Positions 408-60,921 of a DNA stretch of 64,000 nucleotides are shown here, piece after piece. A program made the translations under genes and the position numbers. The notes below the pieces were generated by a model. The model ran no database searches. It saw only the letters and a list, made by a program, of their open reading frames with translations, and was not told the origin of the DNA. Source of the DNA: Chitinophaga oryzae (GTDB lineage Bacteria; Bacteroidota; Bacteroidia; Chitinophagales; Chitinophagaceae). The stretch spans positions 62,001 to 126,000 of the forward strand of contig NZ_CP051204.2 in assembly GCF_012516375.2 (NCBI RefSeq), written 5' to 3'. Within the stretch, counting starts at the first letter, position 1. Each line of letters opens with the position of its first letter.

Positions 408-484
408 ACGCAAAGATTGTAAGTTAGGAGCTAAGGACACCGGAAAAGTGTACCAAATTCGCTCAAACTTAACGATCTTTGCGT
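408..484. repeat. intergenic inverted repeat (acgcaaag type)
   Basis: Bases 408-417 (acgcaaagat) are the exact reverse complement of 475-484, and the pairing continues imperfectly inward (gtaagtt against aacttaac). It lies in the 167-base gap between adk and obgE, both on the plus strand. It could be a terminator of adk, but no clean U-tract follows. It shares the word acgcaaag with the repeats at 4909-5048 and 47331-47398. Confidence 0.6.
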
Positions 485-528
485 TTTATTTTCTGGCAGC
501 AGCCATTTTGGTTTAAAAATATTGATTA

Positions 529-1562
529 GTGGAAAAAGCGAACTTCGTAGATTATATCCGTGTATTTTGTAAGTCTGGTAAAGGCGGCGCAGGCAGTATG
601 CATTTTATGCGTACCAAGTTCAATGCGATGGCCGGCCCCGACGGTGGCGACGGTGGCAGAGGCGGACACGTGATCCTGAGAGGGAACGCTCAGTTATGGA
701 CCCTGTTGCACCTGCGCTGGCATAAAAACCTGCTGGCAGAAGACGGTGAAAACGGCAGTGGCGACAACTGTACCGGCCGCTTTGGAAAGGATATTATCAT
801 CGAAGTACCGCTGGGCACTACTGCCAAAGACGAAGAAACAGGCCGCGTGGAAGCGGAAATCCTCCACGATGGCCAGGAAGTGATCTGGATCCCCGGCGGC
901 CAGGGCGGCCGCGGCAACGCCTACTTTAAATCGGCTACCAACCAGACACCGGAATATGCTCAACCCGGCATGCCCGGGCAGGAAGGCTGGAAAATCGTAG
1001 AACTGAAAGTACTGGCCGACGTAGGACTGGTAGGTTTCCCGAATGCCGGCAAATCCACCCTCCTTTCCACTATCTCCGCCGCCAAACCCAAAGTGGCAGA
1101 CTACGCTTTCACCACCCTCACCCCCAACTGGGGATGGTAGCGTACCGTGACAACCAATCCTTCTGCATGGCAGACCTTCCGGGCATCATCGAAGGCGCCC
1201 ACGAAGGCAAAGGACTGGGTCACCGGTTTTTACGACACATTGAAAGAAACGCCGTTTTATTATTTCTGATTCCTGCCGACAGCGCCGATCACCGCAAAGA
1301 GTTTGACGTGCTGGTCAACGAACTGGAACAGTATAATCCCGAGCTCCTGGATAAACAGTTTTTGCTGGCCATCAGTAAAAGCGATATGCTCGATGACGAA
1401 CTGAAAGCCGCCATCGCAGCAGAATTGCCGGAAGATGTGCCGCATGTATTTATCTCCTCTGTCACACAGCAGGGAATCACTGAGCTGAAAGATATCTTGT
1501 GGCAAGCCCTGACAGACAAAGACAACCAGATAAGTACAGCCGGCACCGTTAGCGCCGAATAA
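529..1562 (+). pseudogene. obgE: GTPase Obg/CgtA, interrupted by a -1 frameshift
   Basis: Obg is a ribosome-associated GTPase needed for 50S assembly and stress control, and is essential in most bacteria. From a GTG at 529 the frame gives the glycine-rich Obg fold ([22 protein letters not shown]) and then the GTPase P-loop GFPNAGKST at residues 169-177. At TTLTPN the frame runs into WGW and a TAG stop at 1138-1140. The rest of the protein continues in another frame from LGMVAYRD (1128 on), with G3 [10 protein letters not shown]4 SKSD and a G5-like SSV, to a stop at 1560-1562. Adding one C next to 1128 restores a single protein of about 344 residues, the normal size for the family. No slippery sequence suggests programmed shifting. 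A sequencing error is as likely as a real mutation. Confidence 0.9.
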
Positions 1563-1622
1563 CTGACAGGGCAAGGGACCTGTAATAAAACGTCCATGTT
1601 TCGTTACACGATCCCACTTACT

Positions 1623-2321
1623 ATGAAAACACTGTTAAAGCTTGTACTGCCGGCATCCCTGCTGATGACGGCCTGCCAACAAACAAAAACACCTGTTAAG
1701 GAAAAACCCGTCCAGATCGATACTATGCAGCTGATAGCCCTCCCGGCGCCGTCAGCTGAAAAAGTCGCGTCCAATGAAGTGTCTGTAGTAAGCCGCGACA
1801 GTACGACGTATGTGCGTTTCGGTGACTGCTATTTTTCGCTCGACTGGATTTCGGCAGACCAGCAACGCAATGACTTTGAAAAACATCCTGATACCCTCTA
1901 CTTTTCACTCGAGCCCAAACGCACCATCGAAGGCCAGATGCTGGCCATTACCACCGGCGAAGCCGAAAAAATAAAAGTATGGCAGCGCTTCGAAACCAGC
2001 GCACGCGTAGGACGGCAGGTGCTCCGTCAATGGAAACACTACCGCAGCGAGTGGGAACAGCTTCACCCTGAAGCCAGCAACTTTTTTATCTGCCGGAAAT
2101 ATACCGCTGCGCAAACCAACCGGTTGCCCGAGGACGCCACCCTCGAAAGCCTGCAACAACACGTAAAAAAACACTACGGACAAGCGCTCTTTAACCAGGT
2201 AGCCCTCCTGCAGGCCCTGCCCGAGGCGGTCATCACCACCTACTTCCTGAAGTTCAACGGCACCCTGCGCAACTCCCCCACCAAAATCAATAAACTGCTG
2301 GTTATCCAGGTAACGCCCTGA
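1623..2321 (+). CDS. predicted lipoprotein of unknown function
   Basis: I chose the ATG at 1623 because it gives a clean signal-peptidase-II leader, MKTLLKLVLPASLLMTAC, with the lipobox cysteine at residue 18. An upstream ATG at 1596 in the same frame would add ten residues before the leader. The mature protein (232 residues in total) is soluble and probably anchored to a membrane facing the periplasm. I do not recognise a domain. Visible traits are a tyrosine/tryptophan-rich core (RFGDCYFSLDW) and a helical C-terminal half. It follows obgE by about 60 bases and may be co-transcribed with it. Confidence 0.75.
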   Translation: MKTLLKLVLPASLLMTACQQTKTPVKEKPVQIDTMQLIALPAPSAEKVASNEVSVVSRDSTTYVRFGDCYFSLDWISADQQRNDFEKHPDTLYFSLEPKRTIEGQMLAITTGEAEKIKVWQRFETSARVGRQVLRQWKHYRSEWEQLHPEASNFFICRKYTAAQTNRLPEDATLESLQQHVKKHYGQALFNQVALLQALPEAVITTYFLKFNGTLRNSPTKINKLLVIQVTP

Positions 2322-2328
2322 CAGTACT

Positions 2329-2366
2329 AAAAAAGAGAACCGGCAATGCAGACGCATCACCGGTTC
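2329..2366 (-). terminator. Rho-independent terminator of the GNAT gene
   Basis: Bases 2337-2343 (gaaccgg) pair with 2360-2366 (ccggttc), with inner pairing atgc/gcat. Read on the minus strand the hairpin is followed by six T residues (2329-2334). It sits just downstream of the GNAT stop at 2370 and may also stop transcription from the convergent lipoprotein gene. Confidence 0.7.
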
Positions 2367-2369
2367 ATA

Positions 2370-2948
2370 TCAATCGGCTGTACTTAACAGAACAGGGGTT
2401 TTCAGTTCCGGCGGGTGAAACAACATAGCGGTGCACAGGCAATTCGCAAATTGATGACCCACCAGAACAGGATAGTTAATGCAACTCTTACACCCTTCCC
2501 AGAAACGGGTGTCAGTAGTAATTTCGGAATAAGTAACCGGCAGGAAGCCCAGCCGGCTGTTTAACTTCATCACCGGCAAACCGGTAGTGATACTGAAAAT
2601 TTTTGCAGATGGATATAAAAAACGACTTAACTCGAATATCTTCTTTTTGATGGCCGCCGCCACTTTCAGTCCCCTGAAAGCCGGTGACACTATCAAACCG
2701 CTGTTCGACACAAAACGGTTGTTTTGCCAGGCCTGTATGTAAGAAAACCCCGCCCAGAAACCACTCTTCGTAAAAGCGATGACCCCATTCCCCTGCAGGA
2801 TCTTTTTCTTGATATCCAATGGATTCCGCTTCGCGATACCAGTTCCCCTGGCTTTGGCGGAAGATTCCATTTCGGCCACAATGGGCAGCGCAAAGTCCAC
2901 GTCTTCCGGCGTCGCTACCCTGACAATTATCTCCTCATCTGTTTCCAT
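2370..2948 (-). CDS. GNAT-fold N-acetyltransferase with a C-terminal CxxC...CxC motif
   Basis: The 192-residue product starts with a typical GNAT beta strand (IIVRVATPEDVDFALPIV) and has an acetyl-CoA-binding region near VSPAFRGLKVAAAIKKKI. Near the C-terminus it carries FWEGCKSCINYPVL followed by FANCLCTAMLF, that is four cysteines in CxxC and CxC pairs. Acetyltransferases with such a tail occur next to argG in Bacteroidota and are thought to be N-acetylglutamate synthases for arginine synthesis; no arg gene is visible here, so the substrate is open. The ATG at 2946-2948 is preferred to an upstream in-frame codon because it overlaps the preceding gene's end by only 14 bases, which suggests translational coupling. 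Confidence 0.75.
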   Translation of the reverse strand: METDEEIIVRVATPEDVDFALPIVAEMESSAKARGTGIAKRNPLDIKKKILQGNGVIAFTKSGFWAGFSYIQAWQNNRFVSNSGLIVSPAFRGLKVAAAIKKKIFELSRFLYPSAKIFSITTGLPVMKLNSRLGFLPVTYSEITTDTRFWEGCKSCINYPVLVGHQFANCLCTAMLFHPPELKTPVLLSTAD

Positions 2949-3300
2949 TGTAAATGAGTTGTTGCTGTATGTAAAGACCATAAATCGCATCCGGTATCAG
3001 GCCATAAATCCTGATCCGGTTCACGGCATCGCCCAGTGGCACTTTACTAAGCGCCGGCACAAATACCCGGGTGATGGCGCCCCTTACCACTTCATTGCCG
3101 CGTTCATATAGCTTCCCGGCCAGCTGCAGACATCTGCCGGCCACCGGAAAATTCTGTTCCCGCAATTGCCGGTCGGTATATTCACTGAAACATCCTACGG
3201 TGTCGTATATGTGAAATATCGCCGGAAACTGATGTAAAGCTTTTTTAAGTGCCGGTATATGATCTTCTATATAAGCCGGCACTTCGTATTGGTTTATCAT
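2935..3300 (-). CDS. small conserved-looking protein of unknown function
   Basis: This 121-residue protein has no signal peptide or membrane segment. It is mostly helical, with an acidic N-terminus (YEVPAYIEDHIPALKKAL) and a middle part, FSEYTDRQLREQN, followed by a cysteine in RCLQLAGKLYERG. I do not recognise the family with confidence. Its end overlaps the start of the GNAT acetyltransferase gene by 14 bases in another frame, so the two are very likely made from one mRNA, with this gene first. That coupling suggests a shared role, but nothing in the sequence says which. Confidence 0.7.
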   Translation of the reverse strand: MINQYEVPAYIEDHIPALKKALHQFPAIFHIYDTVGCFSEYTDRQLREQNFPVAGRCLQLAGKLYERGNEVVRGAITRVFVPALSKVPLGDAVNRIRIYGLIPDAIYGLYIQQQLIYNGNR

Positions 3301-3479
3301 GGCTGATCGTTGTTACTGATCAGCTAATGCCAAATGGTATTCCACAAACAGCAAGGGAACGTTAAAACACAGCAGGAATAAGGATTTTTAACAATTTACA
3401 GGAAGATGCCAAACGGAAAAAGTCTTCCGTTTCTGCATGGTGTTTTCAAAAAATGCAAGGCCGGCCACGGCAATTAACA

Positions 3480-3515
3480 GTAAAGCCTGACACCTTTTAC
3501 GGCGTCAGGCTTTAC
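3480..3515 (-). terminator. hairpin terminator downstream of the PepSY gene
   Basis: Bases 3480-3491 (gtaaagcctgac) pair exactly with 3504-3515 (gtcaggctttac), giving a 12-bp stem just after the PepSY stop codon on the minus strand. A second small hairpin, 3411-3418 with 3425-3432 (aaacggaa/ttccgttt), lies further along in the 237-base gap between 3301 and 3537. The gap shows nothing else that I can identify. Confidence 0.65.
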
Positions 3516-3537
3516 CTCAATTATTTATCTGTGAATA

Positions 3538-4782
3538 TCAGGCGGCAGCCAGCGGCGGAACCACGCTGCGCTTATTCTTAGCGGCTTTCTTTTTCTTCAT
3601 GGTCCGGTTGATCCACAGGATGGTACCGGTAGTAGGGAAAGTAGCGCCGAGCAAAGCCAGCAGCAGTGCAAAAATTTTAGACGGCAGCCCGAAGATGGAA
3701 CCGGTGTGCAGCGGTTTGATCATGCCCCTTACCTTCTGGCCAAGGTTTCTTTCACTGAAAGTCTGCGACTTCAATACCTTACCGCTGAACTGGTCGAGGT
3801 AGTAACTGGTGGTAGCTGCCTCGTTCAATGCGCCGGCGGGCAGCAGGGTCACCTGTATAGACGCTTCTTTGTCTCTCGGCATCGCCACGGCATAATATTG
3901 CGCATCGGGCGCCTGCTGTTTTACCTGCGTTAAAGCCGCCTCATAGGAGATGTTACCGGTCGTCTCCGGCGCAACGACCGATGCCGGCGCTTCCATGGGC
4001 TTGGGAGACGCCCCCAGCACAGCAAACAGCCCTTTATTGAACCATTCGTACGACCAGGTAAGGCCGGTAAATACCGATACAAACAGGAAGATGCAGACAT
4101 AGAAGCCCAGCACCACGTGCATATCATGATTCAGCCTTTTCCAGCCCCCGTCCCACTTCACTTTAAGACGCTGTTGCAGTATCTTACGCGTTTTAGGCCA
4201 CCATAATACGATGCCGGTAATGAGAATGAACAGGAAAATCAGGGTGCTGGCACCGGTGATCATCTTGCCGGTGTCTCCGGCCAATAACCAACGGTGAAGG
4301 GAGAATATCTGGTAGTAGAAAGTTTTCTGATAACTGTAAAGTTCTATCACCTTGCCGGTATACGGGTTAACAAAGGCGGTGCGGCCTTTTGATTTCTTTT
4401 GTTCTTTACCGCCGGCCCTGACAGCTTTATCCCCGGCAGGCTTCATTTCTTTGCCGGCCTCTTTTTTACTTTCCCCGCGCGCTTCTTTGCTCATCCCGCC
4501 CTTTTTACCTTCGTCCAGCTGAACGGCCAGGGAACGGGACGGATCTGCATACACCTGGATACGGGAAATACCCGCGCCCGGCACCTGCTGCTTCACCATC
4601 TCGGCGATCTGGTCCAGCGGTAACCGTTCCTTTTCAGGCGCTACGTAATAGCGGCTGTGATTAAATGCTTCCGTCAGCTCCTTTTCAAATACCAGTAAAG
4701 CACCGGTCAGACAGCTGATGGTAATAACCAGGCCGGCCGCCAGCCCGAGGTATAAGTGAATACGGCGAAAAAAAACTTTCAT
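3538..4782 (-). CDS. PepSY-domain transmembrane protein
   Basis: The 414-residue protein opens with FFRRIHLYLGLAAGLVITIS, the hallmark of PepSY-associated membrane proteins, which in Bacteroidota are often linked to iron or siderophore uptake. Hydrophobic segments are visible near residues 8-30, 175-195 (TLIFLFILITGIVLWWPKTR), 215-240 and 365-388. A first PepSY-like region (LDQIAEMVKQQVPG) is followed by a low-complexity insert rich in Lys, Gly and Glu at about residues 92-140, then FVNPYTGKVIELYSYQK. The periplasmic loop after the third helix holds another PepSY-like part. The protein probably sits in the inner membrane; whether it reduces iron is not shown by the sequence. FeoB is encoded far away at 61.9-64 kb. 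Confidence 0.88.
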   Translation of the reverse strand: MKVFFRRIHLYLGLAAGLVITISCLTGALLVFEKELTEAFNHSRYYVAPEKERLPLDQIAEMVKQQVPGAGISRIQVYADPSRSLAVQLDEGKKGGMSKEARGESKKEAGKEMKPAGDKAVRAGGKEQKKSKGRTAFVNPYTGKVIELYSYQKTFYYQIFSLHRWLLAGDTGKMITGASTLIFLFILITGIVLWWPKTRKILQQRLKVKWDGGWKRLNHDMHVVLGFYVCIFLFVSVFTGLTWSYEWFNKGLFAVLGASPKPMEAPASVVAPETTGNISYEAALTQVKQQAPDAQYYAVAMPRDKEASIQVTLLPAGALNEAATTSYYLDQFSGKVLKSQTFSERNLGQKVRGMIKPLHTGSIFGLPSKIFALLLALLGATFPTTGTILWINRTMKKKKAAKNKRSVVPPLAAA

Positions 4783-4908
4783 ATCAGACTTGATCCAACC
4801 GCAAAAAAACGATCCGTGACGCGAAATATACTTGCGGAAGAGGAAAAAGATTTACGCAATCCGGAATTTTTTCCACGCAAAGATATCTAAGGTCAACATT
4901 TGTTTAAT

Positions 4909-5048
4909 AAGAACGCAAAGAAGCGAAGACCAGTTTTAATTCACCCACTCAGTATTCAGCCATTTAAATATTATATTTTCTTATAATAAACAAATGAGTA
5001 AATGGATAAATGAACAAATAAAACTGGTCTTCGCTCCTTTGCGTTCTT
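4909..5048. repeat. long inverted repeat, 30-base arms (acgcaaag type)
   Basis: Bases 4909-4938 and 5019-5048 are reverse complements with 29 of 30 matches; the single difference is A/G inside acgcaaag. The 80-base loop is A+T-rich and has a weaker internal pairing around ccattta/taaatgg. The element fills much of the 303-base gap between ybaB and the PepSY gene, both on the minus strand. Further single copies of cgcaaag occur outside the arms, near 4875 and 5073. Apart from the repeat I see no gene in this gap. Confidence 0.85.
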
Positions 5049-5085
5049 AATAATATCAATAATCTCTGCGCGCTTTGCGAGAAAA

Positions 5086-5388
5086 CTAGAGCAGACCACC
5101 CAGCATACCGCCGGCAGCGCTCTTCATCTCTGCTTCCCACGTGTTTTCCGCATCTTTCAATGCACGATTCAGCGCTGTCAGCAGCAGATCTTCCAGTTCT
5201 TCTTTATGCTCCGGCGTCATCAGCCGCTCCGCCACTTCAATACTTTTTACCTGACGGTTGCCATCCACTGTTACTTTAATCGCACCGTCGCCAGCTTCGC
5301 CTTCCAGCGTAACTTTAGCCAGACGCTCTTTCCCTTCTTTCATTTTCTGTTGGATCTGCGTCAGCTTGCCGAATAAATCACCAAACAT
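5086..5388 (-). CDS. YbaB/EbfC family nucleoid-associated protein
   Basis: This small DNA-binding protein of 100 residues starts MFGDLFGKLTQIQQKMKEG, the standard beginning of the YbaB/EbfC family, and ends with the family's Gly/Met-rich tail (AAGGMLGGLL). Members form dimers that bind DNA non-specifically or at GTNNAC-like sites. The central strand IKVTVDGNRQVKSIEV is well conserved. The ATG at 5388 is used because the 14 residues encoded upstream in the same frame do not resemble the family. In many bacteria it is next to dnaX and recR; neither is here. Confidence 0.93.
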   Translation of the reverse strand: MFGDLFGKLTQIQQKMKEGKERLAKVTLEGEAGDGAIKVTVDGNRQVKSIEVAERLMTPEHKEELEDLLLTALNRALKDAENTWEAEMKSAAGGMLGGLL

Positions 5389-5520
5389 ATCTTGTGTTTT
5401 TTTAGGGCCGTAAAGATAAGTTTTTACCACACCGTTTTAATATTCAATATTTTAAATATACGTTAGCCACAAGCAACAATTATGTATCTTACCATCAGGT
5501 ATAAGTTATCAGCTTAAAAA

Positions 5521-6756: not shown

Positions 6757-6769
6757 TCCAATCATCCCT

Positions 6770-7861: not shown

Positions 7862-7889
7862 GCTGTACGGAACGTATTAATCCCCAGCT

Positions 7890-10768: not shown

Positions 10769-10792
10769 GCTTAATATTTTAGATGATAGTAA

Positions 10793-11989: not shown

Positions 11990-11998
11990 GGAAAAACA

Positions 11999-18956: not shown

Positions 18957-18972
18957 TCATTTTGATATTTGA

Positions 18973-19042
18973 TTATTTTGATATTTGGTTATTTAGGAAC
19001 CCGTTGGTTGAGGGGCTTCCCAATAACCAAATATCAAAATAA
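18973..19042. repeat. perfect 21-base inverted repeat between convergent genes (ggttattt type)
   Basis: Bases 18973-18993 and 19022-19042 are exact reverse complements (21 of 21), A+T-rich, with a 28-base GC-rich loop. It sits between the convergent mutL and FGGY kinase genes, where a two-way terminator would be expected. The arm word ttggttatt recurs, partly changed, in the repeats at 22351-22422 and 41992-42074. Confidence 0.85.
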
Positions 19043-19050
19043 CCCAATGG

Positions 19051-20511
19051 CTAAATCTCCTTTACCGCCTCATACAGCCGCAGGAACCGCCTGTATTTTT
19101 GCTGATACCCTTCATATTTTCCTTTATCTGGCGGAAAAACCGTCGCCACCGTTCCCTCCCCTGTTTCAAACGGTAGCTGCAACACATTGGCAGCCAATAC
19201 AATAGCACCCAGCGCCGAGGCGTCGGCCTGCTGGTCGAGCGTCATTTCCTGTCCGAAAATATCGGCGAGCAGCTGTATCCATCCCGGGGTGGCGGTAAAC
19301 CCGCCGCTGACGGATATCCGGCGTACCGGTCCGGCAGTTTCCGTCAGCGCCCGGCGGATACTCAGCAGCGTAAAACAGATCCCCTCCAGCAAGGCCCTCA
19401 TAAAATGAGCCGCGGTATGCCCGGGCTGTATGCCCACAAAAGCCGCAGTAGCGTGGCTGTTCCAGATGGGCGCCCGCTCCCCGAGGAGGTAAGGCAGGCA
19501 TAACAGAGGGCCGGTGTCCGTTTGCAGCGCCTCTTCCACCAGCGGCTGCAGGGCTGTCAGCGGCATCCGCAGGAAATCGCGCACCAGCCATTGCAGCAGC
19601 GCGCCGCCATTGTTGGTGGCGCCGCCGGTGATATACACGTCGTCAGTCAGCAGGTAGGTAAACAGGCGGCCGTGGGCGTCTGTCTGCGGCCGGGAGGAAG
19701 CCATGCGTACGGCACCACTGGTGCCGATGGTGATGGTGGCATGGCCCGGGTCCAGTGCGCGGCTGCCCAGCTGGGCCAGGCACCCGTCGCTCCCGCCGAT
19801 GATGAAAGGCGTATTTGCCGGTATGCCCAGTTCCGCCGCCACTGCGGGCAGTAGGGGCGGCAGCCGGAAAGTGGCCGGTACCGGCTCCGGCAGCTGCGCG
19901 GCCGTAATACCGGCATAGTCCAGCGCTTCCCGGCTCCACCGCAGCCCGGCGATGTCAAACAGCCCGGTAGCGGAAGCAATACTATGATCGCTGTAATATC
20001 TCCCGAAAAAATGATGAATGATATATTCCTTGATACCCGGGAACATGGTCGCCCGGGCAAAAAGTTCCGGTTGCTGTTCCCGCATCCAGCGCAACTTACA
20101 GAGGGGCGACATGGCATGTACCGGGGTGCCGGTTTGCCGGTACAGTCTTTTCCCCGCTTCCGTGTCCCGCAGGGCCTGCGCCTGCGGCTCGCTGCGGTTG
20201 TCGGCCCAGAGGATCAACGGCGTAAGCGCCTGACCACTGCCGTCTACCGCCATGATGCTGTGCATGGCGCTGCTGAAGGAGATGGCCGCCGGCGGACGCC
20301 CCGCCCGGGACACCACCTCACGGATACCTTTTTTTACCGCATCCAGCAACAGCAGCGGGTCTTGCTCCGCATATCCCGGCTGCGGGTAACGGGTGGCATA
20401 GGCCTGTTGAAATACGCCCACCACCGCTCCGTTTTGAAGCCCAAGCCCAATCGTTTTAGCACTACTGGTACCAATATCTGCGCCGATGATGTAGGGTGTC
20501 TGCTCACTCAT
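19051..20511 (-). CDS. FGGY-family carbohydrate kinase, gluconokinase-like
   Basis: The 486-residue kinase has the N-terminal phosphate-binding loop IIGADIGTSSAKTIGL (residues 8-23), the substrate-facing WADNRSEPQ and a GGSDGCLAQLGS motif in the second half, followed by TIGTSGAVRM. LSIRRALTETAGPVRRISVSGG near residue 390 is the adenosine-binding motif. FGGY kinases phosphorylate sugars or polyols with ATP; the closest impression is bacterial gluconokinase of the FGGY type, though xylulose or glycerol kinase cannot be excluded by eye. It is divergent from the GMC dehydrogenase gene (83-base gap), which fits a role in using oxidised sugars. Confidence 0.85.
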   Translation of the reverse strand: MSEQTPYIIGADIGTSSAKTIGLGLQNGAVVGVFQQAYATRYPQPGYAEQDPLLLLDAVKKGIREVVSRAGRPPAAISFSSAMHSIMAVDGSGQALTPLILWADNRSEPQAQALRDTEAGKRLYRQTGTPVHAMSPLCKLRWMREQQPELFARATMFPGIKEYIIHHFFGRYYSDHSIASATGLFDIAGLRWSREALDYAGITAAQLPEPVPATFRLPPLLPAVAAELGIPANTPFIIGGSDGCLAQLGSRALDPGHATITIGTSGAVRMASSRPQTDAHGRLFTYLLTDDVYITGGATNNGGALLQWLVRDFLRMPLTALQPLVEEALQTDTGPLLCLPYLLGERAPIWNSHATAAFVGIQPGHTAAHFMRALLEGICFTLLSIRRALTETAGPVRRISVSGGFTATPGWIQLLADIFGQEMTLDQQADASALGAIVLAANVLQLPFETGEGTVATVFPPDKGKYEGYQQKYRRFLRLYEAVKEI

Positions 20512-22350: not shown

Positions 22351-22422
22351 TTATTTGATTATTTATTTAATGACCTAAGCGAGTGGCTTAACAACGAAAG
22401 CACCAGGTAAATAACCAAATAA
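22351..22422. repeat. inverted repeat inside an apparent operon (ggttattt type)
   Basis: Bases 22351-22365 and 22408-22422 are reverse complements with 14 of 15 matches. It fills the 108-base gap between the GMC dehydrogenase and its small-subunit gene. A terminator here would cut the operon, so this copy argues against a simple terminator role or indicates transcript tuning. Confidence 0.65.
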
Positions 22423-24723: not shown

Positions 24724-24746
24724 TCCTGAGATATTTGATCCAAATA

Positions 24747-24773
24747 AAAAGGGTGCCCAGTGGGCACCCTTTT
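24747..24773. terminator. strong two-way terminator
   Basis: Bases 24747-24759 (aaaagggtgccca) pair exactly with 24761-24773, with A- and T-runs on both sides. It sits between the convergent Gfo/Idh gene and the His-rich protein gene and would end both transcripts. Confidence 0.92.
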
Positions 24774-24795
24774 GCATTCCTGTTGTGATTAACGT

Positions 24796-25575
24796 CTAAT
24801 GGTGATGATGATGGTGAGCATGACCTGTTGCAACTTCGGCAGCAGCGTTGCCTACCTGTATCGTAAAGCTGGCCGTATGTAACACCCCTTCTGTTTTAAA
24901 CTGTATCCACATCCGGTAAATGTCTGCCTTCGGAAACACGGTATGGCCGATGATGGGGAACCGGCTGTCTGACATAGGATGGATATGCAGAAAATCCTTG
25001 TCTTCCCGGCCGATCATAATGATGTGCGCCACAGCGCCCAGGTACGGGTTAATATCTGCAGCATTCAATGCCTTTCCGTCTTTTGTGATGGCAACCGGAA
25101 TATGGCTTTCCGCTCCTGCAACAAAAGGAGCCGTGGCAGCGATAGCAAGGTGCAATCCGTCAGTATCCGCAGAGCGCTTTTCGTTCGTTTCGCCCGGCGC
25201 CGGTTGTTCCCCGCCTTCTACCTCCAGTGTAAGCCGGTCCGTTTGCGGCGCATATCCTTCGGCCTGATAATCGGCATAAACGAGGTATTTGCCAGGTTGG
25301 TTAAAAGTAACGTCTATGAAATAGTGACCATCGGCATCGTGTTGGGGATGCAGGTGCTCAAAGGAAGTCAGTTGGTCATTGACGATGATCAGGTGAAATG
25401 CTGCTTCGTGCTGTACGCTTAGCGGAACGGAAGCTTCAGGGTGGTTGCTGTTCACCGGCCTGAATACCAACCTGGTATTTTTCCCGGTTACAATAGCGCC
25501 GCCGCCGGCGATCAGTTTCATGGCTATAGGTGACGGTTGTCCGTGATGTCCTTGGTGATGGTGATTCATTTCCAT
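24796..25575 (-). CDS. histidine-rich protein with polyhistidine tail, possible metal handling
   Basis: The product (259 residues from the ATG at 25575) has His clusters at both ends: MNHHHQGHHGQ at the start and GHAHHHHHH at the end. Between them are two similar beta-sandwich-like halves: one with AAFHLIIVNDQLTSFEHLHPQHD, the other with VAHIIMIGREDKDFLHIHP. Each half carries the same pattern, a hydrophobic strand then FxHLHP or FLHIHP, so it looks like a tandem duplication. Similar single domains occur in copper- or heavy-metal-related periplasmic proteins. No signal peptide is visible, which is odd for such a role. The start is uncertain; an in-frame codon at 25608 would add 11 residues. 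Family not recognised. Confidence 0.75.
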   Translation of the reverse strand: MEMNHHHQGHHGQPSPIAMKLIAGGGAIVTGKNTRLVFRPVNSNHPEASVPLSVQHEAAFHLIIVNDQLTSFEHLHPQHDADGHYFIDVTFNQPGKYLVYADYQAEGYAPQTDRLTLEVEGGEQPAPGETNEKRSADTDGLHLAIAATAPFVAGAESHIPVAITKDGKALNAADINPYLGAVAHIIMIGREDKDFLHIHPMSDSRFPIIGHTVFPKADIYRMWIQFKTEGVLHTASFTIQVGNAAAEVATGHAHHHHHH

Positions 25576-25673
25576 AAGATTAAAATTATGATGTAAAGTT
25601 CGCGGCATACGGCAACAGATCTGTTATATTATTCGGGACTTCTTTTATGAGATTTACAGGTGAGAAAAAATAC

Positions 25674-25710
25674 AAGAGGGTGTCTCTGCAAATAGCGGAA
25701 ACACCCTCTT
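25674..25710 (-). terminator. terminator of the susCD transcript
   Basis: Bases 25674-25683 (aagagggtgt) pair with 25701-25710. It lies 25 bases past the SusD stop codon on the minus strand. A- and T-rich stretches flank it. Confidence 0.75.
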
Positions 25711-25734
25711 TCTTTATATAGGCAAATATCTCAC

Positions 25735-30559: not shown

Positions 30560-30628
30560 AAATGAGATTTTTGGGTGATAAAAATGCTACGTTCTACTGT
30601 TTTTCAATAAATAGTTTAATCCATAACA

Positions 30629-30656
30629 TAGTGGTAATCTTACCTAGTGGTAAGAT
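30629..30656. promoter_or_regulatory. direct repeat plus palindrome upstream of susC
   Basis: The nine bases tagtggtaa occur at 30629-30637 and 30645-30653, 16 bases apart. Overlapping them, 30637-30644 (atcttacc) pairs with 30649-30656 (ggtaagat) around a 4-base centre. It lies 70-97 bases before the susC start in a 336-base divergent gap and looks like an operator. Confidence 0.4.
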
Positions 30657-30805
30657 ATTCACAAATAACTTGATTATTTTCTAAAAATAAGTGTGTTTTT
30701 TACGCCTTTTTTAAAAATGCTCATGCATAAAAAGTACCCGATAATACAACTGTCCCATCAGCGGCTCATTTAAAGTAAGAATAGAATAACTGAAAATCGT
30801 TATAC

Positions 30806-30850
30806 ATGCAAAAAGGCCGGTAGTCCAAAAAACTATCGGCCTTTTTGCAT
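30806..30850. terminator. terminator-like hairpin in a divergent gap
   Basis: Bases 30806-30824 and 30832-30850 are reverse complements with 18 of 19 matches (the odd pair is G-U), GC-rich in the centre and with A5/T5 at the base. It lies between two gene starts, susC to the left and a lipoprotein to the right, where no coding gene needs a terminator. It may be an attenuator of the lipoprotein gene or end an unannotated RNA. The rest of the 336-base gap (30560-30895) is A+T-rich, with only the susC repeat at 30629-30656. Confidence 0.6.
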
Positions 30851-30895
30851 AAATTCATAGTAATGAACGTTATAGAATAACCAGATCTATTGTTT

Positions 30896-41977: not shown

Positions 41978-41991
41978 GTGGAACTTTTACA

Positions 41992-42074
41992 TTAGGTTAT
42001 TGGGTTATTTAGAAATTTAAGCATTTTAGGGAACCCATTAAATGCATAAATTTCTAAATAACCCAATAACCCAA
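41992..42074. repeat. near-perfect long palindrome, 35-base arms (ggttattt type)
   Basis: Bases 41992-42026 and 42040-42074 are reverse complements with 33 of 35 matches; the 13-base loop contains a further gggaaccc palindrome. The full element is 83 bases and lies in the 103-base gap between the NYN and dps genes, both on the minus strand. Read from dps, it follows the stop codon by 6 bases, as a terminator would, but it has A+T-rich arms and no separate U-tract. Confidence 0.92.
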
Positions 42075-42080
42075 TTGTTA

Positions 42081-45378: not shown

Positions 45379-45438
45379 GATTAGTTTGTTAAAAGCAATA
45401 TCGTTTATGACTACGCATTGAATTTGCGTGCAAAAAAA

Positions 45439-45470
45439 ATACGAATTGCAAACTACGTTGCAATTCGTAT
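45439..45470 (-). terminator. terminator of the kdn cluster
   Basis: Bases 45439-45451 (atacgaattgcaa) pair exactly with 45458-45470. Read on the minus strand, the 13-bp stem leads into eight T residues. It is placed just after the kdnB stop and before rmuC. Confidence 0.92.
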
Positions 45471-45494
45471 CCTTTAATACGGTTTCCCGGAATA

Positions 45495-47330: not shown

Positions 47331-47398
47331 CACGCAAAGGCGCAAAGCAGCAAAGAGGCAAAGACCCTGGCGCCTTTGCTGCTTTGCGCCTCTGCGTG
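47331..47398. repeat. inverted repeat, 25-base arms (acgcaaag type)
   Basis: Bases 47331-47355 and 47374-47398 are reverse complements with 24 of 25 matches. Each arm is itself made of short direct repeats of gcaaag. It fills almost the whole 87-base gap between kdnA and kdsB, which otherwise look like one operon, and shares words with 408-484 and 4909-5048. Confidence 0.9.
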
Positions 47399-50741: not shown

Positions 50742-50745
50742 ATGA

Positions 50746-51513: not shown

Positions 51514-51643
51514 GTTGCTTTAGTTAGTTGCAGGGATTCGGGTAATATGCTGCTGTTTAATGCCGGCAGACCTTTTTTTACGGCAAGTATAGGTTATAAT
51601 TTGTTTAAAGACGCTACTTTTACACAGGTCAAGTGAATTTTAT

Positions 51644-53032: not shown

Positions 53033-53050
53033 GTGTAAACATTTTTCATG

Positions 53051-53524: not shown

Positions 53525-53550
53525 GCAATGTTTTTTAAACAGCTTAGGGG

Positions 53551-53745: not shown

Positions 53746-53954
53746 AAAATAGGTTTTTAAGGTGAGAGAATAAGTTTTCATTTTTTGGTATCTAAAGGTT
53801 CACAAACACCATTCCATAAATGAATAATGTATAAAACTTTCCACTAAAATTCCGCATTAAGAACAAGCTTTGCGGTTTTTTGTTTAACTATCTTGGCCGG
53901 AAGCGCTGGTTCATTTTTTGCCTGTACCAATAAATTATCCGATATTATTGTACT

Positions 53955-55600: not shown

Positions 55601-55614
55601 GTTTCATCTTTTTT

Positions 55615-55727
55615 CAATTACGGATTACGAATTACGAATTGAGGGCCTGCTTATGGAAAACGTCCTTCAGTAACCATGCTATAAGAAAGCGCTCAATTCG
55701 TAATTCGTAATTCGTAATCCGTAATTG
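55615..55727. repeat. inverted repeat with unequal arms (ttacgaatt type)
   Basis: Bases 55615-55643 (29) and 55692-55727 (36) are reverse complements except that the right arm has three copies of the 7-base unit (acgaatt/aattcgt) and the left has two. Everything else in the arms matches. The loop is 48 bases. It occupies most of the gap between paaD and nadD. The copy number difference suggests slippage within a hairpin or a recent insertion. Confidence 0.9.
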
Positions 55728-55778
55728 TAAAAGTAGGTATTTCCTGTGATAGCCATGGCGGAAACATAGAAACAACGC

Positions 55779-56276
55779 TTATTCCAGCGGCTTGAACTGC
55801 TCAAACACCTGGCCACATGACTTGCAGTAATGAATAGCGCGGCACAACGTGGACCCGAACGGTGAACGGAGATAGGTGTGTTCGCTGCCGCAATGCGGGC
55901 AAGGCGTGTTCAGCATGATCTCCGGCCGTACGTCCCCTTCCAGTACCGGCGGCGGCGCGATCCCGAAGTTCTTCAGTTTCTCTTTGGCGGCAGCCGTCAT
56001 CCGGTTGCTTTCCCAGTGCACATGTTTATCGATTTCTACGGTCACGGCTACCCCAAGCGCCTTTTCCACTACCGTCCTGATATTATCTTTAATATAACTG
56101 ACGGCCGGGCAGGCGGCGAACGTAGGTATCATGCGGACCAATACGGGCTGCCCTTCCGTGATGTCCACCCCGGTGATCATACCGAGATCTATCACGCTGA
56201 GCACCGGTATCTCAGGGTCCATCACCTGTTCCAGCGCATGATATACATCTTCCTGTGAAATAGTGGCTGACATCAT
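55779..56276 (-). CDS. paaD: phenylacetyl-CoA epoxidase subunit PaaD
   Basis: The 165-residue protein has an N-terminal DUF59-like (MIP18) domain: VYHALEQVMDPEIPVLSVIDLG and VRMIPTFAACPAVSYIKDNI. The C-terminus holds a zinc- or Fe-S-binding ribbon, CPHCGSEHTYLRSPFG and HYCKSCGQVF. PaaD helps to assemble or activate the epoxidase. It starts one or two codons after the paaC stop (double ATG at 56276 and 56273). It is the last gene of the set in this window; paaE is not seen after it. Confidence 0.94.
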   Translation of the reverse strand: MMSATISQEDVYHALEQVMDPEIPVLSVIDLGMITGVDITEGQPVLVRMIPTFAACPAVSYIKDNIRTVVEKALGVAVTVEIDKHVHWESNRMTAAAKEKLKNFGIAPPPVLEGDVRPEIMLNTPCPHCGSEHTYLRSPFGSTLCRAIHYCKSCGQVFEQFKPLE

Positions 56277-56277
56277 A

Positions 56278-57042
56278 TTACCAGCTGGCCTCCGTGTCCA
56301 GGTTAAATACTTCTCCCATCTCTTTCAGCAACGGCCCCAGGTACGTGGTATGAAACCCCTGCCTGCCGCCATACGCCGGCGTGATGGAATCCATATCAGG
56401 AAGATTGAGGGAGGCATTCACCAGCACGGGATAGATACGGTCCAGCCAACGATGGTACAACTCCTTCTCCCCGGGGTACACCTTCTCCGCGATCAGCGTT
56501 TCCTCGTGAGCGGCAGAAGGTTCAAAGATACCGGCGGCAAGGGCGATAGTATCGTTCAGCGCCGTCTGCATCCGGGCATATCCCTCTTCACTGGCTTTGC
56601 TCAGCTGCATGATGAATGCGTTGGCATGCAGTGTATGGTATTTCAATTCTCCCTTTATTTTTTTACTGAGCAGCTGAAACGGTTCGAAGCTGCTGTCCTG
56701 CAAGCTTTCATAACGTGCTGTTTCGGCATGGTCGAACAGGAAATGCCGCATCAGGCTGAAATCATAGCCGCCATTGGGCATCTCCACCAGGTGGGCGCAT
56801 TTAAAAGCGCTTTCCGGGCGCATAAATGCAAAGCGGTCAGGATCTTCGCCGCCGAGATGTTCATGCAGGATGCGGTACAGCGCCCAGGCATGGCCGATCT
56901 TGTCCTGTGCCATGGAGGAAAAGGCAATATCTTCTTCCATAACAGGACCGAGGCCTGTCCATTCGGAATTACGATGGCCCTGAATCAGTTCATCGTCGGC
57001 CATCTTTATAATAAGGTCTGCTAATGCTGCGTTGCTGATCAT
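56278..57042 (-). CDS. paaC: phenylacetyl-CoA epoxidase subunit PaaC
   Basis: The 254-residue protein has the ferritin-like PaaC features: LADLIIKMADDELIQGHRNSE, then EEDIAFSSMAQDKIGHAWALY and a later FDHAETARYESLQDS. PaaC is the structural partner of the catalytic PaaA in the epoxidase complex. It lacks a full di-iron site, as expected. Its ATG overlaps the paaB stop by four bases (ATGA), so the two are translationally coupled. Confidence 0.95.
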   Translation of the reverse strand: MISNAALADLIIKMADDELIQGHRNSEWTGLGPVMEEDIAFSSMAQDKIGHAWALYRILHEHLGGEDPDRFAFMRPESAFKCAHLVEMPNGGYDFSLMRHFLFDHAETARYESLQDSSFEPFQLLSKKIKGELKYHTLHANAFIMQLSKASEEGYARMQTALNDTIALAAGIFEPSAAHEETLIAEKVYPGEKELYHRWLDRIYPVLVNASLNLPDMDSITPAYGGRQGFHTTYLGPLLKEMGEVFNLDTEASW

Positions 57043-57407
57043 TTCGATTGTTTGAATTTGTTGATCTTCTCCATTACCTTAAAACCACTGGCATCGCGGT
57101 AGTTCTTTTCCAGATTGTTGGCGAACATATCTTCATCTTCCACATCAAAAGCCAGAATGTCGGCACTTCTGACTACCCACAGGTTCACACATTTTTTACG
57201 GCGGGCAAATTGTTCTTTGGCAAAAACCAGCGCCAGCTGCGGGTCCGGTGCATGCACACAGCCTACGTGCTCATGGTGGGCCCCCCTCTTCTCCTGGTGA
57301 AACACTTCGTACACATTCCAGTTCTCCCCTTCCTCCACTTTGATGACCGCGCTGGCATCACCCAGCTTCAGCCTGTTGACACGCGGATCTAAAGACTCGT
57401 TAGACAT
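57039..57407 (-). CDS. paaB: phenylacetyl-CoA epoxidase subunit PaaB
   Basis: The 122-residue protein has the PaaB core: WNVYEVFHQEKRGAHHEHVG, VHAPDPQLALVFAKEQFARR and LWVVRSADI. PaaB is a small subunit that bridges PaaAC pairs. The start and end are well defined; the N-terminal 20 residues (LDPRVNRLKLG) are typical of Bacteroidota forms. It follows paaA by 79 bases. Confidence 0.94.
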   Translation of the reverse strand: MSNESLDPRVNRLKLGDASAVIKVEEGENWNVYEVFHQEKRGAHHEHVGCVHAPDPQLALVFAKEQFARRKKCVNLWVVRSADILAFDVEDEDMFANNLEKNYRDASGFKVMEKINKFKQSK

Positions 57408-57486
57408 GAATTTGTTGATTGCTTTTTTAAACGAAAAACTGCCTGTCGACCGGGATCGCAGGCTATAACGTGCAGGTATATACGAT

Positions 57487-58485
57487 TTAAGCCACCGGCA
57501 ACGCGCGCCGCTCTGCCGGGTTCATTAATGCCTTGCGTACCCAGCGCCCCTCTTCTTCCGCCCACTTACGCACCTGCAGCCGCTCTGCGTTGCACGGACC
57601 GCCGCCGTTGATCACCCGGAAAAATTCGTCCCAGTCGGGATCGGTATATTCCCAGCGGCCTGTATCCGCATTTTTGCGGAGCAACGGGTCCGGCAGGGTC
57701 AGTCCCAGCTCCCATATTTTAGGCACATAGCTGTCGAGGAACTGGTTACGCATTTCATCATTGCTGGCCATCTTCACTTTCCATTGCATCAGCTTTTCGC
57801 TGTGCCGGGAAGTTTTGTCGGGAGGACCGAAGAAATGCATGATCGGCTGCCACCAGCGGTTCAGCGCATCCTGCAGCATGGCTTTCTGCTCCGGCGTACC
57901 GGTTGCCAGCTCAATAAACGCATCATGCCCCTGTTTCAGGTGGAAGCTCTCTTCATAACAGATACGCTCCAGCGCCCGGCAATAAGGGCCATAGGAACCC
58001 TTGGCATTGGCCACCTGGTTCACAATAGCGGCCGCATCGATCAGGAAACCGATCACAGTCACATCCGCCCATGTTTTGGCGGGATAGTTAAATACGTTGG
58101 AATATTTGGATTTGCCGCTGAGCAGGTCGTTGATCATTGCTTCCCTTGACTTGCCAAGGGTTTCCGCTGCATTGTACAGCAATTGGCCGTGACCGATCTC
58201 ATCCTGTACCTTGGCGATCAGGGCCAGTTTACGCTTAAATCCGGGAGCGCGGGTGATCCATGTTCCTTCCGGCAATGCCCCGATGATTTCTGAGTGCGCG
58301 TGCTGTTCAATTAAACGGATGAGTTGTCTGCGATACTCCGCCGGCATCCAGTCGCCCGGCTCAATTTTTTCCCCCCTGGCGATCCTTTCTTCAAAAGCCG
58401 CCAGCTTTCCGGGATCATCATGCTGTTGTTCTTCCCGCAGCTGTTTACCGTTTGGTTCGTCGAAAATATATCCGCCGCCGTACAT
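57487..58485 (-). CDS. paaA: phenylacetyl-CoA epoxidase catalytic subunit PaaA
   Basis: The 332-residue subunit carries the di-iron site: the helices with [37 protein letters not shown] and the second pair [20 protein letters not shown]. It epoxidises the ring of phenylacetyl-CoA with O2. The N-terminal [16 protein letters not shown] is usual in the family. The gene heads the paaABCD set on the minus strand. The divergent gap to the DUF922 gene is 162 bases. Confidence 0.96.
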
Positions 58486-58647
58486 AGTGCGATTGTTTTG
58501 GTTGGAAGTAAATTACGGAAAAAAGCCCGTTTCCGGCAGAAAATGATTGTTAAAACGCCGGGGCAAATGTTATAGAATTTACAAATTTTGGCGCCCGGGA
58601 ACAGGCAGTCCCGCATTTTCCTAATTTTATTCCTGTTGTCCACAGGT

Positions 58648-59310
58648 ATGCCACCCTTATTACATATATTTTGTATGTTTTTTTTGCCCTTCGGGCAGAC
58701 GGAAACGCATATCCCGCCGGCGCCGCCGCATAAAATCATCCACATCCAGCTGGAATTCGAGGACCGGGAAGATGAGGACGACCCGGATTCAGACACCCTT
58801 TTTTATTCCAACACCCGCAGGCTCCGCTGGGACGATTTCAGGGGTACGCCCTCTCCTGCCGGACCCAGCGCCGCCGTGTCCTACACCAGCTTTTCCTACG
58901 AAGGCGCCAGCACCCTCTCCCACGACACGCTGAAAATCAAGCTGATCATGCAGGTGTTCTTTATAAAAAGCGCCTCCTGGGTACGGAACGATGCACGCGA
59001 CAACTACGCGCTGATGCATGAACAGCTGCATTTCGACATCACCCGGCTGGTGGTGGAACGCTTCAAACAAAAGCTGCGGCAAACTGCATTGAACCGCGAC
59101 GACTACGACAGTGTTATACAATATCAATATCTCCAGTCTTTCCAGGAAATGAACCGCATGCAGTACGCCTTCGACCGCGACACCCATCACGGCACCAATA
59201 TGGCTGCGCAGGTCCGATGGCGGGATAAAGTCAACCTGGGCCTTAAAAACAAAGGGGTGATGCCGGAAGAACTTGGATATGATCTCTTTGGTAACTTTGG
59301 TCCACAATAG
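58648..59310 (+). CDS. DUF922-like putative zinc protease
   Basis: From an ATG at 58648 the protein has 220 residues and a hydrophobic leader (LLHIFCMFFLPFG). A TTG at 58588 would give an extended start; I prefer the later one as the leader becomes N-terminal. The conserved DUF922 part has TRRLRWDDFRGTP and a candidate zinc site, ALMHEQLHFDI (HEQLH fits HExxH). The tail has FDRDTHHGTNMAAQVRW, with another His pair. The protein is likely secreted. It is divergent from paaA and lies 50 bases before the S41 gene. Confidence 0.8.
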   Translation: MPPLLHIFCMFFLPFGQTETHIPPAPPHKIIHIQLEFEDREDEDDPDSDTLFYSNTRRLRWDDFRGTPSPAGPSAAVSYTSFSYEGASTLSHDTLKIKLIMQVFFIKSASWVRNDARDNYALMHEQLHFDITRLVVERFKQKLRQTALNRDDYDSVIQYQYLQSFQEMNRMQYAFDRDTHHGTNMAAQVRWRDKVNLGLKNKGVMPEELGYDLFGNFGPQ

Positions 59311-59347
59311 TGTTATACTATTGTTCGTTTAATCATTCGGGTTATCC

Positions 59348-59355
59348 TAAATTTG
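59348..59355 (+). promoter_or_regulatory. -7 box TAAATTTG directly before the S41 peptidase start
   Basis: TAAATTTG at 59348-59355 fits TAnnTTTG. The ATG is at 59361, five bases later. A TTG at 59321-59323 is 24 bases before the box, slightly far. The position suggests a leaderless mRNA, as for the MFS gene at 42729. Confidence 0.5.
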
Positions 59356-59360
59356 CTGCT

Positions 59361-60779
59361 ATGCAACCAAATCGACGCAACTGGCTGATCGCCGGCCTCC
59401 TGTTCACCGCCCTGTTCTCTGCCTGTAAAAAAAAGGACGCGGCAGGCCCGCAACGACAACAGGGCAATATCAACGATAGTATCTTCTCCGTGTTTAAAGA
59501 CATTTACCTGTGGACAGATGTTATTCCCGATTCCGCCACCTTTAAGCCGGAAAGCTATTCCTCCCCGGTGAGCATGTTCCGCTCACTCATCAGCATCAAA
59601 AAGAACAATACGGGCAGCCAGCCACTCGATAAATACAGCTTCCTGGACGACGGCAGCACTTCCCGTACCATCCAGGAAGGTATTGCAGGCGACATGGGCT
59701 TCGAAGTCGGCTATCAGACAGACAATACGCTCTATGTTGTGTACGTTTACGCCGGCTCCCCGGCAGATAAAGCCGGCATCAAACGCGGATGGCAGCTCAC
59801 CAGCGTCAACGGTACCACCAGCTTCCAGGTAGGACAAGCGACAGACAACCTGCTCAACGCCGCCTTTTCCAGCAAAAGCGCCACCTGGATATTCCGCAAA
59901 CCGGATAATAATTCCCAGACCATCACGCTGTCTCCCGCCACCTATAAACTCAATCCTGTTCTCTACGCCAACACCTACAATTTCAACGGCACCAAAGTAG
60001 GCTACGTTGTATTCAACAACTTCGTCGCCCTTATGGATGTGAAGCCCACCTTCGATTCACTGTTCAATGTGTGGGCGCAGGGCGGTGTTACCCGGGTGAT
60101 CATGGACCTCCGTTACAACGGCGGCGGCCTCCTGGAAACGGCGGAATACCTGGCCAACAACCTCGCGCCGGCCAGCGCCAGCAATACCGTGATGTATACG
60201 CAGCAGTTCAACAGCAACGTCCATAATAACAACTACAGCTATATTTTCCGGAACATGAAAGCGCTCCCATACAATCCCAATATGTACTGGACGGAGATCT
60301 TCCGGAACGAAGCCACCACTTATAAAACCGCCAGGTTCCAAAAACAGGGGAATCTGGCCCTGACCAACCTGAGCTTCATCGTTACCTACGGCACTGTGTC
60401 TGCCAGCGAACTGCTGTACAATGTGCTGAAGCCCACCATGAAACCACACCTGATCGGCGGCACCACTTACGGTAAACCGGTAGGTTTCATCAACATCCCC
60501 TTTGGCCAGTATGATATGTATGCCGTTTCTTTCCAGACATTCAACGCCGCCGGCGAAGGAAATTATTTCGATGGCATCGCCCCCACCCTTACGGTAACGG
60601 ACGACTATACCCACAACTGGGGCAGCCTCAGTGATCCGTTGCTGCGCTCCGCGCTGACAGACATGGGCATCCCGGCATCAGCGCTGGGCAGAATGGCCAC
60701 CACCGAGCTTAGCACCGGCAGGATCGGAACGCTGCGCCAGAGCAACCGCTTCCAGGGCATGATACAAACATTGAGATAA
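59361..60779 (+). CDS. S41-family (C-terminal processing) peptidase lipoprotein
   Basis: The ATG at 59361 gives 472 residues with a lipoprotein leader, RRNWLIAGLLFTALFSAC, then KKK. A PDZ-like domain is seen at about residues 110-190 (VVYVYAGSPADKAGIKRGWQL). The S41 catalytic region has VIMDLRYNGGGLLETAEYLAN near residue 245 and TYGTVSASELLYNVLKP (residues ~341-357) with the nucleophile Ser. The usual late Lys/Glu region has PHLIGGTTYGKPVG. It cleaves proteins in the periplasm or at the outer membrane. The gene is convergent with the M28 peptidase gene. Confidence 0.93.
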   Translation: MQPNRRNWLIAGLLFTALFSACKKKDAAGPQRQQGNINDSIFSVFKDIYLWTDVIPDSATFKPESYSSPVSMFRSLISIKKNNTGSQPLDKYSFLDDGSTSRTIQEGIAGDMGFEVGYQTDNTLYVVYVYAGSPADKAGIKRGWQLTSVNGTTSFQVGQATDNLLNAAFSSKSATWIFRKPDNNSQTITLSPATYKLNPVLYANTYNFNGTKVGYVVFNNFVALMDVKPTFDSLFNVWAQGGVTRVIMDLRYNGGGLLETAEYLANNLAPASASNTVMYTQQFNSNVHNNNYSYIFRNMKALPYNPNMYWTEIFRNEATTYKTARFQKQGNLALTNLSFIVTYGTVSASELLYNVLKPTMKPHLIGGTTYGKPVGFINIPFGQYDMYAVSFQTFNAAGEGNYFDGIAPTLTVTDDYTHNWGSLSDPLLRSALTDMGIPASALGRMATTELSTGRIGTLRQSNRFQGMIQTLR

Positions 60780-60783
60780 ATAC

Positions 60784-60921
60784 ATTTAGGGATTTTTTGA
60801 TTTACGAATTTTTTGATTTCTGGAATAAAGAAGAGAAGACCGGCGCGAATGACGATCGCGCCGGTCTTCTCTTTTATCATTTATAAAATTAAAAAATTCG
60901 TAAATCAAAAAATCCCTAAAT
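60784..60921. repeat. nested inverted repeat: 36-base outer arms and 17-base inner hairpin
   Basis: Bases 60784-60819 pair with 60886-60921 (35 of 36). Between them, 60832-60848 pairs exactly with 60856-60872, a GC-rich stem with a 7-base loop that looks like a classic two-way terminator. The outer arms are A+T-rich. The right outer arm runs six bases into the M28 gene and so includes its stop codon. It lies between convergent genes. Confidence 0.93.

Follow-up and report, generated by a model that had tools for sequence, protein, structure and literature searches.

The palindromes that lie between genes in a 64,000-nucleotide stretch of the Chitinophaga oryzae chromosome (C1:62001-126000 of a single contig of 8,363,885 bases; the whole stretch is referred to below as the window) are probably the non-coding members of word families, each with a resident gene for a small protein that serves as a helper other than a transposase, by a logic like that of REPIN/RAYT. 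The words are 7-8 base sequences repeated in tandem along the palindrome arms, and further word classes abound in sister species. That word classes are paired with resident genes is new here and goes beyond an earlier note on this DNA, made from its sequence alone; it suggests an overlooked type of small spreading element without a known transposase.

The earlier note had described eight places with inverted repeats, always between genes and sharing three sets of words. Of 30 pairs found by an inverted-repeat search of the window the 25 longest were listed, and these include seven of the eight places, the eighth (22351-22422) being weak and seen by eye. All of the palindromes are between long open reading frames (ORFs, called by a simple longest-ORF rule), with an overlap of no more than 6 bases at an ORF end (19051 and 60916). 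The shared words are real, with ATTACGAATTACGAATT occurring 237 + 257 times in the C. oryzae genome and its reversed control 0 times, but there are four classes of them in the window, not three, as assigned partly by eye. Class A is (ATTACGA)n, at 55610; class B is made of ATTTTTTG/ATTTACGA units, at 60784; class C is (CGCAAAGN)n, at 4904 and 47331 and weakly at 403; and class D is (GGTTATTT)n, at 18959, 22351, and 41991.

A Dolichospermum plasmid has 28 places of the class A word with a four-helix-bundle gene near them, and for this reason PF05635 (23S rRNA intervening-sequence protein, Avd-like) was tested. PF13366 (PDDEXK_3, "GxxExxY") was taken to be the likely partner of the CGCAAAG repeats. 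Of 79 Chitinophaga genomes, 22 have PF05635 and 22 have PF13366; among 14 control genomes the numbers are 0 and 3. There are 35 PF05635 matches in the genus, of which 30 loci were fetched and analysed, and 21 full-length PF13366 loci (G, L, and C numbers below denote genomes, loci, and contigs). The genes are nested within palindromes: the gapped complementarity of the two flanks is greater than the maximum of 527 control ORFs at 26/30 PF05635 and 18/21 PF13366 loci, and an ungapped score of at least 15 is reached at 22/30 PF05635 loci, as against 1/527 control ORFs. The ungapped search misses imperfect arms, such that L236, the only PF13366 copy in C. oryzae, scores 0 ungapped and 28 gapped. 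In G009 the PF05635 gene L174 is within a perfect palindrome with 80-bp arms of one heptamer, AATTATG. In a draw of Bacteroidota genomes, PF05635 is present in 232 of 296; among the 30 best-scoring loci across the phylum, 19 pass the gapped bar and only 6 reach 15 ungapped.

When 50 loci are oriented and grouped by their flanks, they fall into 14 sites, mostly with one word class per site. Site 0 (PF13366) has class C-like arms in 13 genomes, although L243 is below the control maximum and the words are reversed in L238. At site 1 (PF05635), B or D arms are found in the majority of 8 genomes, B in C. oryzae and D-like in G038, G053, and G054, with L181 lacking clear arms. At site 2 (PF05635) the arms are of class A in 5 genomes and of AATTAAG in G057, while GGATTA or TGATTA words are present in 4/6 at site 3 (PF13366), AAAGC words in 5, one short, at site 4, and TTAGC in 4 at site 5; the remaining eight sites are single loci. 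Because the loci collapse into so few sites and are mostly inherited vertically, the idea that coding copies hop freely was rejected as the main picture.

The genomes with a gene lineage are usually those rich in its word. TTAGC words number 508, 451, 353, and 317 in exactly the four genomes that have site 5, the next highest of the 79 genomes having 115 and 92. AAAGC words number 1232, 522, 318, 265, and 11 in the genomes with site 4, four of the five holding ranks 1, 2, 4, and 5; three kin genomes without PF05635 have 428, 263, and 190, and G049 has 90. AATTATG is found 270 times in G009, the genome predicted to have it, 9 times in G053, and not at all in the other 77 (exact p = 1/79). Class A words, scanned in 60 of the 79 genomes, number 586, 494, 263, 80, and 13 in the genomes with site 2 and at most 121 in the other 55. 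Class C words number 0-143 in the genomes with site 0 and at most 34 elsewhere, and PF13366 is present in 11 of the 12 genomes with at least 9 of them. The reversed controls of the word-count patterns give near-zero matches.

For each gene lineage, the highest median count among its genomes is that of its own word. The p values of one-sided rank tests range from 1.3e-4 to 2e-8 for four classes, and Fisher tests give p = 9e-9 for PF05635 with class A (17/19 versus 5/41) and p = 4e-7 for PF13366 with class C (11/12 versus 10/67), all of these statistics ignoring kinship. In the class A tests G060-G078, outside the 60-genome scan, were entered as 0, and in the PF13366 tests a partial match in G055 was left out. 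The word persists even where synonymous sites are near saturation, as between L170 and L189 (dS 1.88), and in a protein tree of 70 PF05635 rows like words tend to group, with few columns and many weak forks.

The resident genes are under purifying selection, with dN/dS of 0.03-0.24 in 12 of 13 pairs, the other pair being saturated, and they are co-oriented with both neighbours at 43/50 loci. The arms have a period of 7 in 29 of 39 PF05635 cases and of 8 in 6, the period being weak in 4; for PF13366 it is 8 in 5 of 20 and weak in 13. Three PF05635 matches, L177 (G040), L178 (G044), and L187 (G030), have an internal stop codon, which suggests that some helpers are decaying, while G044 still has the words. 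A sequence search for solved structures related to PF05635 found 2rld alone. In the records examined, PF05635 proteins are annotated as 'four helix bundle' or hypothetical protein and PF13366 proteins as 'GxxExxY protein'. No description of the link between gene and palindrome was found in the open-access literature searched, and the literal repeat words had no match in open-access papers.

The palindromes are dispersed to the 3' ends of genes throughout the sampled chromosome. In 464 kb (the window and 20 further stretches), 39 inverted repeats score at least 16, compared with 0 in three dinucleotide-preserving shuffles. Of those scoring at least 20, 26/31 overlap called ORFs by less than 10%, called ORFs covering 91.6% of the sequence. 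An enlarged sample of 644 kb has 56 repeats, which extrapolates to roughly 700 per genome; rough sorting by pattern gives 14 of class A, 17 of class B, 6 of class C, 2 of class D, one GTAG-type repetitive extragenic palindromic (REP) sequence, and 16 others, which include ordinary terminators. The class A core pattern was matched in 3 stretches, all from records of C. eiseniae and C. varians; the records nearest to the C. oryzae genome may have been excluded. The ends of contigs C10 and C11 of G009 fall within (AATTATG)n arrays, and palindromes of this kind may therefore interrupt assemblies, so that draft genomes show too few of them.

Between genomes, palindromes take the place of ordinary terminators and of one another. 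In 264 kb compared, 35 orthologous gaps for which four or more genomes have data hold a repeat in one or more of them, and swaps were read by eye from 23 printed gaps, some of them printed twice. At locus 29 there is a class A palindrome in C. oryzae and a GC-rich terminator in five relatives; at locus 14 class A is present in C. oryzae and G038 and a terminator in four; and at locus 18 there is class B in C. oryzae and class D in five. A bare terminator is present in G043 and G044 at loci 3 and 28, and in G044 at locus 9, where the others have a palindrome. The class A gains are polarised by sister species. At three of these (loci 8, 14, and 29) no target-site duplication was seen by eye, the terminator or hairpin region having been replaced. 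Some gaps show little change: locus 22 (C. oryzae, G029), locus 25, and 403-489.

Within the window, synteny is near-complete between C. oryzae and five relatives (G029, G038, G043, G044, and G011). Comparison of syntenic gaps, which the earlier note had put forward, gives both presence or absence and swaps. The note's refuting case, unrelated arms that are each just the local terminator kept in place, does not apply, except that 403-489 is kept in place in all six genomes. The class A element at 55610 is present in 3 of 30 genomes (C. oryzae, G029, and G038) and absent from 27. In place of the class D palindrome at 18959, G043 and G044 have an ordinary GC-rich terminator, and the counterpart of 22351-22422 in G043 is a gap of just 21 bp. 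The gap at 41991 has class D in five genomes and a class B palindrome in G011. At 4904-5053 the sequence is strongly different in each relative, with a palindrome scoring up to 86 in G029. Ordinary terminators do stand beside the palindromes, as had been noted: each of the five relatives retains the hairpins of 30806-30850 and 45434-45475 at the same places. The arms of classes A and D, AT-rich by eye, differ from an intrinsic terminator (a GC-rich stem and a run of T), while class B encloses such a core.

The arms change in mirror image. At 41991 species-specific changes are mirrored between the arms in G029, G043, and G044. In 113 same-class pairs, arm identity is 0.957 within one genome, an upper estimate inflated by the choice of repeats for their paired arms, versus 0.869 between orthologous arms. 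It is higher within than between in 84 pairs, lower in 8, and level in 21, with 25 of 28 loci agreeing.

Table 1. Palindromes and a contrasting hairpin of the window (window positions), and the resident genes of the C. oryzae genome (contig positions).
Feature	Position	Remarks
Weak class C-like inverted repeat (ACGCAAAG ... CTTTGCGT)	403..489	75% paired; unlike the others, kept in place in 6/6 genomes
Class C palindrome, GCAAAG words, inner GCGAAGACC core	4904..5053	38-nt arms, 92% paired
Class D palindrome (TTTGGTTATT / AATAACCAAA), convergent gap	18959..19056	80% paired
Weak class D palindrome, tandem gap	22351..22422	Seen by eye in orthologous gaps; not among the 25 longest
Class D palindrome	41991..42075	41-nt arms, 90% paired
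Ordinary terminator-like hairpin, contrast case	45434..45475	Kept in place in 6/6 genomes
Class C palindrome CACGCAAAGGCGCAAAGCAGCAAAG	47331..47398	96% paired
Class A palindrome, (ATTACGA)n arms, inner GAGGGC..CTTATGGA core	55610..55732	97% paired
Class B palindrome enclosing a GC-rich terminator core	60784..60921	97% paired; bare terminator alone in G044
PF05635 gene L182, class A arms		Between secA- and deoC-like genes (translations read)
PF05635 gene L192, class B arms	C1:6991209	Between hemF- and hemB-like genes (translations read)
PF13366 gene L236, sole copy, class C arms	C1:1226947	Between nuoF- and nuoG-like genes

Two other differences in the window concern its genes. The gap at 30560-30890 is 331 bp in C. 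oryzae and about 2.1 kb in the five syntenic relatives, where there is apparently a lipoprotein gene; C. oryzae retains the upstream region and the final terminator. About 1 kb with an ORF at 24732-25717 is present in C. oryzae, G029, G038, and G044 and absent at that place in G043 and G011.

In the system proposed here each family would consist of its own 7-8 base word, in tandem along both arms, and one resident gene lineage, mostly inherited in place. In most classes the helper would be the Avd-like four-helix bundle PF05635, and in the CGCAAAG and GGATTA classes it would be PF13366, which resembles PDDEXK nucleases, its gene being within a palindrome of its own word and usually co-oriented between two operon-like neighbours. 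The protein may recognise its own word in a folded-out single strand or in a transcript, and may help the palindrome to be copied, by template switching, into further gaps that have a hairpin; fold-back template switching would keep the arms matched.

Several observations weigh against this proposal. No copying step was observed among the genomes compared, and most coding copies keep to a single site, no movement of the gene itself being seen. There are words without the gene in G018, G019, and G074 (AAAGC), G043 and G059 (class A), and G037 (class C). Conversely, five PF05635 genomes (G002, G005, G030, G040, and G054) have fewer than 20 of each of the four counted 7-base words, which omit the own words of G005 and several others; class C words number only 0-2 in four of the 13 genomes with site 0; and the class D palindromes of C. 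oryzae are without a gene of its own with D arms. In a weakly resolved single-locus tree of 30 genomes, the TTAGC pairing is in three places (G020; G027; G034 with G037), and the associations, as stated, ignore kinship. To these can be added the inflated arm identity within genomes and the flank bounds used for nesting, which differ slightly between PF05635 loci (domain match) and controls (ORF).

It is also conceivable, though unlikely, that the palindromes are hairpins that serve the host at 3' ends, in termination or in forming mRNA ends, that the proteins are RNA-binding regulators, that the words are selected binding sites, and that nothing is mobile. Such a role would fit the purifying selection on the genes, their co-orientation with both neighbours, and the fact that palindromes stand where relatives have ordinary terminators. 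It would also fit the placement of the repeats: of 50 that could be placed in the 644 kb (6 others lie over an ORF or at an edge), 33 are in tandem gaps, 13 in convergent ones, and 4 in divergent ones, while the longest-ORF caller counts 31% of all gaps, and 36% of the bases in them, as divergent. The wider set including relatives, in which genomes are not independent, has 82 tandem, 36 convergent, 8 divergent, and 15 unplaced. However, one class A word ranges from 0 to 586 matches among 60 genomes of one genus, one inner core recurs at 5/10 class A places, and 129 of 242 genome pairs have unrelated palindromes in one and the same gap. Nor is there a preference for G:U in the arm mismatches of tandem gaps on the transcribed strand (29 G.T versus 34 A.C), which points to arm correction at the DNA level.

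Purely local growth, in which template switching makes or repairs palindromes at any 3' hairpin, the words being mutational bias and the genes passengers, is improbable as a full account. Template switching can create and maintain hairpin stems, as set out in the consulted part of PMC8794818, and the mirrored arm changes agree with this, as does the left outer end of the element at 55610 (TTTTTACA in G029 and G038, TTTTTTCA in C. oryzae), which is reverse-complementary to the conserved flank on the right, TGTAAAA(A). Neither genome-specific words common to hundreds of places, with near-zero matches to the reversed patterns, nor the word-gene pairing would be expected from bias alone. The earlier note had offered a dispersed palindromic class that was either selfish or grown by palindrome-making repair, and both halves are supported: the first by the range of class A word counts and the polarised gains, the second by the arm identities, with detection favouring paired arms.

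The note's likening of the class to REP sequences or miniature inverted-repeat transposable elements (MITEs) holds for palindromic dispersal and fails for a RAYT as the mover and for target-site duplication at the three class A gains. The only PF01797 (RAYT-like) match in C. oryzae, G000:C1:5971449-5971793 (L051), is followed by a perfect 48-bp palindrome (GTAGCCCAGGGC...) with GTAGCCCAGGGCGTGAGCCCTGGG, a REP-like repeat of the GTAG type that differs from classes A-D. That REP/REPIN or MITE elements are moved by an ordinary transposase, PF01797 being the only such family searched against the words, is the least probable explanation, since although the repeats are palindromic, intergenic, and high-copy and PF01797 has its own palindrome here and is present also in G029, G038, G043, and G044, that palindrome has different words, the three gains lack target-site duplications, and PF01797, found in 19/79 genomes, is absent from eight word-rich ones (G053, G037, G034, G027, G020, G024, G046, and G009), for which reason RAYT was rejected as the mover of classes A-D.

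The gene-in-palindrome layout occurs on cyanobacterial, Chloroflexota, and Gemmatimonadota plasmids. Flanks were examined in 14 of 26 plasmid records with a PF05635 match and 2 of 7 with PF13366. At 15/15 newly fetched loci the two flanks pair better than in any of 30 shuffles of them, the narrowest margin being 20 versus 18 for a Bernardetia GxxExxY gene, and the layout is present in Dolichospermum too. Arm words in Nostoc, Planktothrix, and Euhalothece include TAATTCG, GAAGTCG, AATCGTA, and CCAGTGA; GAAGGAT is found in a Chloroflexota plasmid and GCAGAGGAC in Gemmatirosa, and the arms of L165 are identical over 33 nt. When plasmids were searched with the palindrome arms, class B and class D had no match and class C matched one cyanobacterium. 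On plasmids of Anabaena cylindrica and Pseudanabaena (L256, L260) the PF05635 gene adjoins cas1, in Anabaena between cas2 and cas1, and on other plasmids it is beside helicase or DNA methylase genes.

A tentative and wider possibility is that PF05635 and PF13366 are word-specific helpers of widespread, unrecognised palindromic elements that spread as one hairpin is swapped for another via template switching, possibly from a copied transcript, and that 23S rRNA intervening sequences, cyanobacterial heptamers, and the Bacteroidota palindromes are one class. If these proteins are helpers, they would explain many intergenic repeats in Bacteroidota and Cyanobacteria, and how long perfect hairpins arise at the ends of genes could be tested, with one gene, one word, and countable copies.

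Among known systems, MITEs are small non-coding elements with inverted repeats, as are the palindromes here, but these replace rather than simply insert, have no target duplication in the three cases examined, and have no transposase that was found, PF01797 being the only one looked for. The cyanobacterial short tandemly repeated repetitive (STRR) sequences are heptamer direct repeats. TAACTGA repeats are likewise direct heptamers, without an evident transfer mechanism in the part of PMC4679880 consulted. Both resemble the present families in having tandem 7-base words, mostly intergenic, with a patchy distribution in Cyanobacteria and Bacteroidetes, but the words here are palindromic and tied to a gene family.

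The ends of 23S rRNA intervening sequences pair as long stems. These sequences are cut out by RNase III (PMC11270868, in part). The encoding of PF05635 within the inserted sequence is a likeness to the resident genes L182 and L192, although both of these are between protein genes and not in an rRNA gene, and here there are tandem word arms and a large dispersed non-coding family. PF05635 is also said, in an excerpt of PMC10053308, to resemble Avd, the accessory protein of diversity-generating retroelements.

In its logic the proposed system resembles REPIN/RAYT, for which the section of PMC8049555 consulted describes hundreds of short intergenic palindromes and a single-copy, vertically inherited gene, the carriers of which have more of them. 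According to the portion consulted of PMC3733652, from which the definition of the GTAG and CGTC tags is also taken, REPs are mainly downstream of coding regions and the CGTC type is said to be without a dedicated transposase; neither tag was seen by eye on the arms of classes A-D. In both systems there are high-copy intergenic palindromes that avoid divergent gaps and an associated single-copy gene that is vertically inherited. They differ in that the proposed helpers are PF05635 or PF13366, not Y1 transposases (PF01797), and that here the arms are of tandem 7-8 base words and the gene is inside the palindrome. If the reading is correct, this would suggest that the logic of REPIN/RAYT arose more than once, with unrelated proteins.

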